Assembly: GCA_947568835.1 (NCBI GenBank)
Contig: OX387602.1
Coordinates: 22,929,021-22,993,020, forward strand
Reading direction: 5' to 3'
DNA: 64,000 bases
Origin: Protonemura montana
Lineage: Eukaryota > Arthropoda > Insecta > Plecoptera > Nemouridae
Shown: positions 46,701 to 49,700 of the stretch, piece by piece
Layout of the letters: the number at the start of each line of letters is the position of its first letter
How positions within the stretch are numbered: position 1 is the first letter of the stretch
Position numbers and translations under genes: made by a program
The notes under the pieces: generated by a model
The model's database searches: none
The model's input: only the letters and a program-made list of their open reading frames with translations
What the model was told of the DNA's origin: nothing

Positions 46701-49700
46701 TCGGTAAGAAGTTCATGTTCCTGCTCCTATTAATGTCAAAGGAGTACTACGACATTATGGATAAGATCAGCAAGAAGAGATCAGCCGGCGCAGGCGACAC
46801 TCCCTGTTTTTTTCTCAAGAATATATCCAAGAATATAGAAGAATATTAAAAAACCAATCATCCAGATAATCCACGAATCCTTCTGCCAGGGGGTATTCCC
46901 GTCGAATCTTAAAATGGAAAACGTCATTCCTCTTTACAAGAATGGAGACCGGAACAAAACGGAAAACTAGATGCCTATAACCATATCACCTAGATTTTCG
47001 AAAATATTTGAATACGCAATGTGCTCAAAGAATAGCCGCTTTTCTACTTGTCGATCATAATGAATGTTAATGAATGAATAACTTAATTACCGATCACTCC
47101 ACAGAAGTGCACAGTTATACCAAAAGGAAATAGGTATGCCGATCGCAATCGAACATTATCGATAACACACGAAAATATAACGCTGCACAACCCTGTGCAG
47201 TGACGGGTAGGGACTGCAGGAACTTCAAAAATAACTTGATGGCGTACCTAATGGACAAGACTTTTGATAGCGTAGACGAATTCTTTTACGAATCTTTTGG
47301 CTCTACATGATCCAGTTGTTATGCTTGCCGCTCTTTGCAATATGTATCATATATGTATATATAATTATTATACCTTTGTTATTCTGAATTGCTTGTTTTT
47401 AAACTTGTTTATAATTTACTTGTCAATATCACTGTAAGTGATCACAATGATGCAATAAACAAAATCAAAATTAAAAATCAGTGCTATCAGCGCTCAGAGT
47501 ATTTCCCATGAGCACGCCGCCATGTGAGACGCTTTAATGTCCGCAGAAACTGGCGGACTACGAGATCGTGGACTTTGCGAAGACGCAGCTAACTCTGCCG
47601 GACAAGATCGACCCCGCGGACGAGATGTCGTGGCAGCACTACCTCTACTCGAAGCTGGGTCAGAAGAAGGAGGGCGAGGTGGAAGGCAAGCCCGTCAAGA
47701 TCGAGGACGTGGTCGACCGCATCGTCGCCATGTCCAAGGTGCTCTACGGGCTGCACATGGTGAGTGGCCGACGCCTCCAGGTGTCGCAAGAGACTAAATG
47801 CTGAAATAAAAAATGAGCTGCCTTACTTTGCAGAGTCTTGTTTTACAGAAGAAGAATTCCTCAATATTTCTAAGCAAGATACACCTTGAACATCAGAATG
47901 GAATTCTCCTTTTACAAATTGGAGTTCATAAATGCCACTCTTGGTACACAAGCTGACGGAAATATGGCATTTCTAGCAATGCTTGTACAGCTATAGTTGG
48001 CACCGTTTTACCCCTTTCATTGCAGAGTGCCACGCTTATTTCAAATTGCGGGCATCACATCACACCACACTCTGCCCACACAGTCGTTCTAGACAGAACT
48101 AGCACCGCGTTAGCTCTATGATTTCTCGCTTTTTACCTTGTTTATGATACCGTCGCCGACGTCTCTATAACAATTGGCACCGCATGACAACGCTGTTGCG
48201 TGTGCACAGATCGACCATCCGCAGCAGACCTCGAAGGGTGTCTACCGCAGCGTGGTGTCCACACAACGGAAGCGCGCCGTCCTGGCCTGCTTCCGGCAGG
48301 CCTCGCTGCACTCACTTCCCAGGTTCGGTCCCTGTCGCCGTCGACGTGATCCTCCTCAGTGATCCACACTTCACCCAACCCTCACCACAAGTTACCACAA
48401 GGAATCTCCACAGTTGTCTTCACAGTACCAGGACATCAAATCTTACAAATCTACTTCAGAGCCTGAGAAATCCGTAAGATCATATCCCTTCTCAAAAAGG
48501 TTCATCCATGTTCAGATCTTTAGCAAATAATAATCAAGCTACCCAGCGATCATCTAGCAACCCTCCGTCTCCCTATATATAAACAAACTGGTCAATAAGT
48601 TCCCTAAAACATCCCTACTTCCTGATGTCACCGAACCTAAAACAAACGTGTACCGAAAACGTTTGCAACGTCCACTTGCTGTTGTTTTGCTGCCCTTTGT
48701 GTGCTGTTCTTTCTTGCACCTTGGTTGTCACCACACCGTAATCGTCGTGCGTGGACTAGTGTAGTACCTACTTTGCCTCTCACTCACCCACCCATCACTG
48801 TCGTAACGCTGTCTATCTCTCTGTCTCTGTCTTAGCCACTTCCACACTGTACATAACCACTCTCTGTGTTAGCTGGATAACCGAATGGAGTGCATCCAAT
48901 AACAAAACATAACATGTATTGGGCTATGTGTCTTTGTAATAATGTTCGACCAATTGCGTTTGTAACGAAGCGCGCGCCAACTCGCTAACCACACGCTCAA
49001 ACACCTTCAGACCTAGCCGCGGTCTCTCTCATGTCCTAATTGAAACGTAACGAGATGCAAACGAGCTAGTCGCTACCGAGTCGGCGCGCCACTTCGCCTG
49101 GTTATGCGTGCGCATCTCGCCCTACTAACACTTGTGCACACCGGTCCGTGTACGCATGCGCAGGCCTCCAAGCCACGCAGCAAGCGCAGCGGCTGGAAAC
49201 GCGTGCTCTCCGCGGCACGCAGGCGCGCTGCTGTCGCCTGTCTGCGCTGCACGCCGCTCTACACCGTGCGCAGGCAAGTGCAGTCGAGTCGCGGTCGAGT
49301 CGCGGTCGAGTCGCGGTCGCGCTGCCCAGTTTCATTGGTCTTAAAGATTTGGTCTGCGGATGAAAAGGCCTTGTTCAAATACTTTTAAACATATGTCAAA
49401 TTATGTCAAAAAGTAGGAACCCTTGCCATCAAAATACCCTACACCCATTTAAATCCTTGCCAAAGGCGGAGGATATCTTCTTGAGCGCTCAAGATGTGGA
49501 GTCGGGAGAGTACAAGCTTGGCGACCCAGGCATCAGGTAGCAGGTCATTCTTATCGTTAGACGTTAAATAAACTCTCAACTTATCGCTAGTTAACATTAG
49601 CTAACATGTAGCTGCTCTGCTTTCGTTGATGCCGTAAAGGCTTTTGAAATAGTTTTACTCTCTAACCTCTAACTCTCGCTTGAGTAACTCGGCTGAAGTA

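Follow-up and report, generated by a model that had tools for sequence, protein, structure and literature searches.

A candidate mutually exclusive exon pair at the calmodulin-binding site of a stonefly ryanodine receptor gene

The ryanodine receptor gene and its surroundings

The window analysed here, a stretch of 64,000 nucleotides from the stonefly Protonemura montana, carries a complete ryanodine receptor (RyR) gene on its forward strand. The gene model, made with a gene-finding script and then corrected by hand, has two alternates in addition to the 96 exons of each transcript. There are two choices of exon in the SPRY2 domain and two at the calmodulin (CaM) site, and all four of the resulting whole-gene isoforms are open, with 0 internal stops. 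Upstream of the gene we noted by eye a Pro- and Arg/Glu-rich coding region (949-3110), which is presumably AUTS2/fibrosin-like, and another gene (4561-8398) that is presumably tetraspanin-like. The features on which the following analysis turns are these:

10684..61902, forward strand: complete RyR gene, with its ATG at 10684 and its TAG stop at 61900-61902
29509-29608 and 30008-30107: mutually exclusive SPRY2 exons of this RyR gene, 100 nt each, either one alone in frame
47547..47759, forward strand: exon 70, constant, upstream of the pair, ending in phase 0 with a GTGAGT donor
48210..48322, forward strand: exon 71a, the putative CaMBD2 exon, 113 nt, 37 codons, with the weak donor GTTCGG
49164..49273, forward strand: exon 71b, the putative alternative CaMBD2 exon, 110 nt, 36 protein letters
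49846..49939, forward strand: exon 72, constant, downstream of the pair, which receives a stop if both or neither of the 71 exons are used

The number 71 is that of the initial annotation of this DNA; in our own model the CaM-site exon is the 69th of the 96-exon transcript. Counting the stop, the isoforms are 5087 codons long with 71a and 5086 with 71b, and insect RyRs are reported to have 5084-5164 residues (PMC8301844). When an 819-residue stretch was submitted to Pfam, a RIH-associated domain and EF hands were recognised downstream of the CaM-site exon. A 68-residue query made of 71b and exon 72 gave two matches at E <= 0.001 in the genome (258 Mb, 34 contigs), both of them inside the window.

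Before the splice-site, codon and alignment counts were made, two exons of the automatic model (the 14-nt exon 24, and exon 100) were removed by hand, and one boundary each was reset in exon 72 (its start) and exon 99 (its end). The codon score was trained on 15,637 nt of the model, 93 nt of 71b among them. The automatic model had joined 71a and a shortened 71b (acceptor at 49181) in one transcript; we reject this as artefactual, the model being unable to choose between exons.

A frame-locked pair of exons

Exons 71a and 71b lie in tandem between the constant exons 70 and 72. Their coordinates, lengths, peptides and phases (phase 0 on entry and phase 2 on exit for each) are all as the initial annotation had given them. 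Inclusion of either exon alone preserves the reading frame. Inclusion of both shifts it, as had also been claimed, and a stop then follows in exon 72, 77 nt from its start; when both are skipped, the stop lies 12 nt into that exon. Either product would end ahead of the pore and would presumably be lost. We regard 71a and 71b as tandem, homologous, same-phase candidates for mutually exclusive exons of one RyR.

An exclusion device, which membership of this class does not require, was not found. The two exons are 841 nt apart, so there is no spacer too short for splicing, and positions 47760-49845 contain 0 inverted repeats of at least 12 nt (seed 9) and no TGCATG splicing-factor motif. YGCY is dense in 71b by raw count (7 in 110 nt). 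The lack of an enforcing element, together with the stops within exon 72 in both the double-inclusion and the skipping products, would be in keeping with a switch-off in which the two exons are sometimes joined or both skipped, lowering RyR output. We give this very little credence, however, as two homologous coding exons would be needless for such a switch.

Sequence similarity and coding signal of the two copies

Taken alone, the direct match between 71a and 71b is weak (tblastn against the window, E 0.004, 29-36% identity). The search covered 98 of the 99 modelled exons, the 14-nt artefact exon being too short, and at E < 0.01 it found a copy of an exon in the neighbouring intron in just two cases, the SPRY2 pair and the 71a/71b pair. 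Further non-self matches at this threshold came from the RyR-repeat exons 19, 20, 57 and 59, and three more (exons 44, 87 and 88) did not fall within a neighbouring intron. Against the RyR1 CaM peptide of PDB 2bcx the match is stronger, with E 2.4e-6 for residues 5-33 of 71b and 8.6e-4 for 71a.

Such low identity between the copies is what one might see if 71b were a dead or decaying copy that splicing always skips, but the coding signal of 71b argues the other way. Its frame is open, which holds for 4787 of the 24668 overlapping 108-nt windows taken from the RyR introns; its codon score is reached by 10 of these windows and its G+C of 0.72 by none (0/24668). Among 645 pseudo-exons in the introns of this RyR gene (open, phase 0 to 2, 80-149 nt), none equals 71b on splice-site sum and codon score together.

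The splice sites taken one by one point in both directions. The unusual donors are as follows:

49274..49279, forward strand: GC-type 5' splice site of 71b, CAG/GCAAGT, opening a GC-AG intron
53636 and 57102: further GC donors, of constant RyR exons, CAG/GCAAGC and CAG/GCGAGT

The acceptor of 71b is rather weak (12th weakest of 97) and its donor is GC, both of which would suit a dead exon. The GC donor is not special to 71b, however, since two more RyR donors are of this type (3 of the 97 modelled). Moreover, a weight matrix made from this gene gives the donor of 71b a higher score than that of 71a (7.97 versus 4.84); the former ranks 41st from the weakest, and CAG/GTTCGG of 71a is the 6th weakest of the 97. 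Weak or unusual sites are compatible with a regulated pair and prove nothing. Directly 3' of the 71b donor, at 49280-49319, there is an 11-nt spaced repeat with about three copies of the unit GCGGTCGAGTC. All considered, a dead 71b seems to us improbable.

The exons encode a predicted calmodulin-binding site

The best PDB matches place the CaM-site exon at about residues 3610-3647 of RyR1 and 3576-3613 of RyR2. Both 71a and 71b match the CaM-bound peptides of PDB 2bcx (RyR1) and 6y4o (RyR2); the PDB entries with a CaMBD2 peptide are 2bcx, 6y4o and 6xxf. The peptide of exon 70 alone retrieved no RyR from the PDB. On the basis of this homology, both exons are predicted to encode CaMBD2, the main CaM site (RyR1 3614-3643). 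The initial annotation had placed the segment in a central region of the channel, where a swap could change gating. A change of gating stands as a possibility, but the annotation overlooked that the exon corresponds to the CaM-binding helix; because the exon falls on CaMBD2, the "central region" is in fact a known regulatory site.

Shuffled sequences give the same picture. With either exon, the CaMBD2 peptide of RyR2 outscores 200 of 200 shuffles (85 and 89, versus 40 and 45). The counterpart of RyR2 CaMBD1a, at about residues 2020-2041 of the 71a isoform, is weakly recognisable (0/200 shuffles reach its score, which is 47 against 43 for the best shuffle). CaMBD3 of RyR2, with a candidate at about residues 4373-4392 of the 71a isoform, does not rise above shuffles (73/200 reach its score), and RyR2 CaMBD1b is not recognisable (191/200). 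With two of these sites unrecognisable and CaMBD1a weak, CaMBD2 is therefore left as the likely main site. The helix hydrophobic moment does not discriminate, 71a, 71b and RyR2 itself all being indistinguishable from shuffles. As for the ligand, calmodulin is encoded in this genome: two adjoining matches on one contig have 95% (residues 57-140) and 97% (residues 1-61) identity, the second spanning one TAG that is probably an intron edge.

Complementary divergence and the age of the split

The alignment of the two exons with RyR2, in which the one gap column was confirmed by MAFFT, assigns the following codons to the positions that anchor CaM in RyR2:

48243..48245, forward strand: position of W3587 (CaM C-lobe anchor) in 71a, Tyr
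48255..48257, forward strand: position of L3591 in 71a, Val
48291..48293, forward strand: position of F3603 (CaM N-lobe anchor) in 71a, Phe
49194..49196, forward strand: position of W3587 in 71b, Trp
49206..49208, forward strand: position of L3591 in 71b, Leu
49242..49244, forward strand: position of F3603 in 71b, Leu

Thus the Trp anchor is present in 71b and replaced by Tyr in 71a, and the Phe anchor is present in 71a and replaced by Leu in 71b. The same reciprocal pattern runs through the rest of the exon. Ten positions are common to 71a, 71b and RyR2; eight RyR2 residues are found only in 71b (R3581, S3582, K3583, W3587, L3591, V3600, P3607, Y3609) and 11 only in 71a (H3578, Q3580, K3584, V3586, Q3594, K3596, V3599, F3603, A3606, L3611, P3612). 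The proposal of the initial annotation that 71b kept the ancestral-looking form is not supported over the whole exon, where 71a is identical to RyR2 in 21 of 38 columns and 71b in 18, and survives slightly in the CaM-binding core, where 71b has 16 identities of 30 and 71a 15. With exon 72 attached, phmmer scores 71a at 66.6 bits and 71b at 53.1 against RyR2, and the two about equally against RyR1 (52.2 and 51.8). Neither exon is simply the ancestral form, because each keeps different RyR2 residues.

This complementary retention agrees with the ancient duplication that had been suggested. The split between 71a and 71b is probably old, with mammalian sequences as the only outgroup, since a recent copy of 71a would hardly have regained eight RyR2 residues by decay. 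The presence of these residues is also a further argument against a dead 71b. Collections of bacterial, archaeal and viral contigs, searched with a query of 71a plus exon 72 and by alignment, contained no confirmed relative of the pair, as is expected from collections of that composition.

The swap is not confined to the anchors. The whole exon differs, with only 11 of 38 columns in common between 71a and 71b, and the net charge rises across the swap, from +6 to +12. In RyR1 the site also binds S100A1 (PMC6087734). A real mutually exclusive pair may therefore mainly alter something besides CaM affinity, such as contact with a neighbouring domain, binding of an S100-like partner or, given that 71b has an extra Cys three residues past the shared one, redox sensing. 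However, the anchors that differ include those that set CaM affinity in RyR2, and we think this alternative rather unlikely, preferring an effect on CaM control.

Comparison with known systems

A pair of this kind has been predicted before in print. Troczka et al. (2015) described a second mutually exclusive RyR pair at the CaM site, predicted from computed isoforms of Apis, Musca and Ceratitis that are named in the legend to their Figure 3, suggested that it affects CaM sensitivity, and did not find the alternative exon in the aphid (PMC4309888), the last being a point in favour of a dead 71b. The same predicted pair is mentioned again by Troczka et al. in 2018 (PMC6026295). Exon 71 of the aphid resembles the exon described here in lying over CaMBD2, in its 37 residues (3720-3756 in the aphid, 3684-3720 here) and in being predicted to be mutually exclusive, the correspondence being made by CaM site and size. 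That both bear the number 71 is not independent support, because our own model makes the exon the 69th. The two descriptions differ in their source: the earlier pair came from computed isoforms, whereas the present one is read from the genome with its splice sites, frame lock and anchor residues.

The closest parallel within the gene is the insect SPRY2 pair (IASI/ASI), matched here by domain and position, which is likewise tandem, homologous and frame-locked, and has been shown by cDNA in several insects. It lies in another domain, and its copies (residues about 1117-1150) are more similar, with 48% identity over 31 residues (tblastn, E 8e-6), compared with 29-36% for 71a and 71b. As in mammalian CaMBD2 (RyR1 3614-3643, RyR2 3581-3611), the P, S, R, R-A, A-C, R and L positions are conserved; unlike in RyR2, which has Trp, Leu and Phe together, neither exon here has all three.

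A 2022 survey of tandem duplicated exon substitutions has fly Ryr and worm unc-68 among its genes, the RyR exons being unspecified in the available text (PMC9741552). A Plutella review mentions ten potential RyR splice sites, the accessible part giving no positions. In the available text of cDNA studies on Myzus, Bactrocera, Cnaphalocrocis, Ostrinia, Grapholita and Diaphorina, the CaM-site pair is not among the cloned variants. When six peptide strings were sought in published texts, only RAVVACFRM was present among the matches listed. The anchor swap is not stated in the literature text searched, and Figure 3 of Troczka et al. (2015) may show it. The present analysis extends the printed prediction by three points: a GC donor at 71b, complementary divergence of the two copies, and the swap of anchors.

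How splicing could set calmodulin control

The genomic sequence itself shows that the exons form a frame-locked pair homologous to CaMBD2, and that the anchors Tyr, Val and Phe of 71a are swapped for Trp, Leu and Leu in 71b. From this we propose, as a reading that we consider fairly probable, that 71a and 71b serve as mutually exclusive versions of the CaM-binding helix and that the choice between them would set the strength of CaM control over Ca2+ release. Splicing would pick one copy per transcript, with the frame lock removing mixed products. In the channel with 71b, Trp and Leu would hold the CaM C-lobe in place at resting Ca2+, giving a stronger CaM restraint. In that with 71a, CaM would be held more weakly, its N-lobe leaning on Phe. 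The splice choice would then tune CaM control of Ca2+ release by tissue or stage.

Work on mammalian RyR2 gives these expectations their direction. In peptides, W3587A cuts CaM affinity about 30-fold and F3603A hardly matters (PMC6340113). Mice with the triple substitution W3587A/L3591D/F3603A have a CaM-insensitive RyR2, with CaM inhibition disrupted, and L3591D alone abolishes CaM inhibition at diastolic but not at systolic Ca2+ (PMC4122402). The substitutions reported at these anchors are to Ala or Asp, rather than to the Tyr, Val and Leu seen here (PMC6340113, PMC4122402), and the loss of Phe in 71b is a point against its tighter grip. A review considers it undemonstrated that CaM acts directly on insect RyR, and gives as hints of such action a CaM mutant of the fly in which muscle Ca2+ release is abnormal and work on photoreceptors (PMC8301844).

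Significance for insect ryanodine receptors

A splice pair that swaps anchors is a natural experiment, since its two channels are alike except for a single helix of 36-37 residues, and it makes the general suggestion of an effect on CaM sensitivity sharply testable. It also bears on insect RyR pharmacology, where the cDNA clones in use may represent just one of two forms. If the exons predicted in fly and bee are orthologues of 71b, the split would be older than many insect orders.

In D. melanogaster a single RyR gene has been described. Mammalian RyR2 has the Trp-Leu grip on CaM in its sole version of this helix, whereas here that grip is placed on an optional exon. We tentatively raise the possibility, well short of a firm conclusion, that this one gene alternates by splicing between a channel clamped by CaM (71b) and one that is held loosely (71a), and so covers some of the range for which mammals use three RyR genes. 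The division would be older than the losses seen in 71a, because 71b keeps residues that are gone from 71a.
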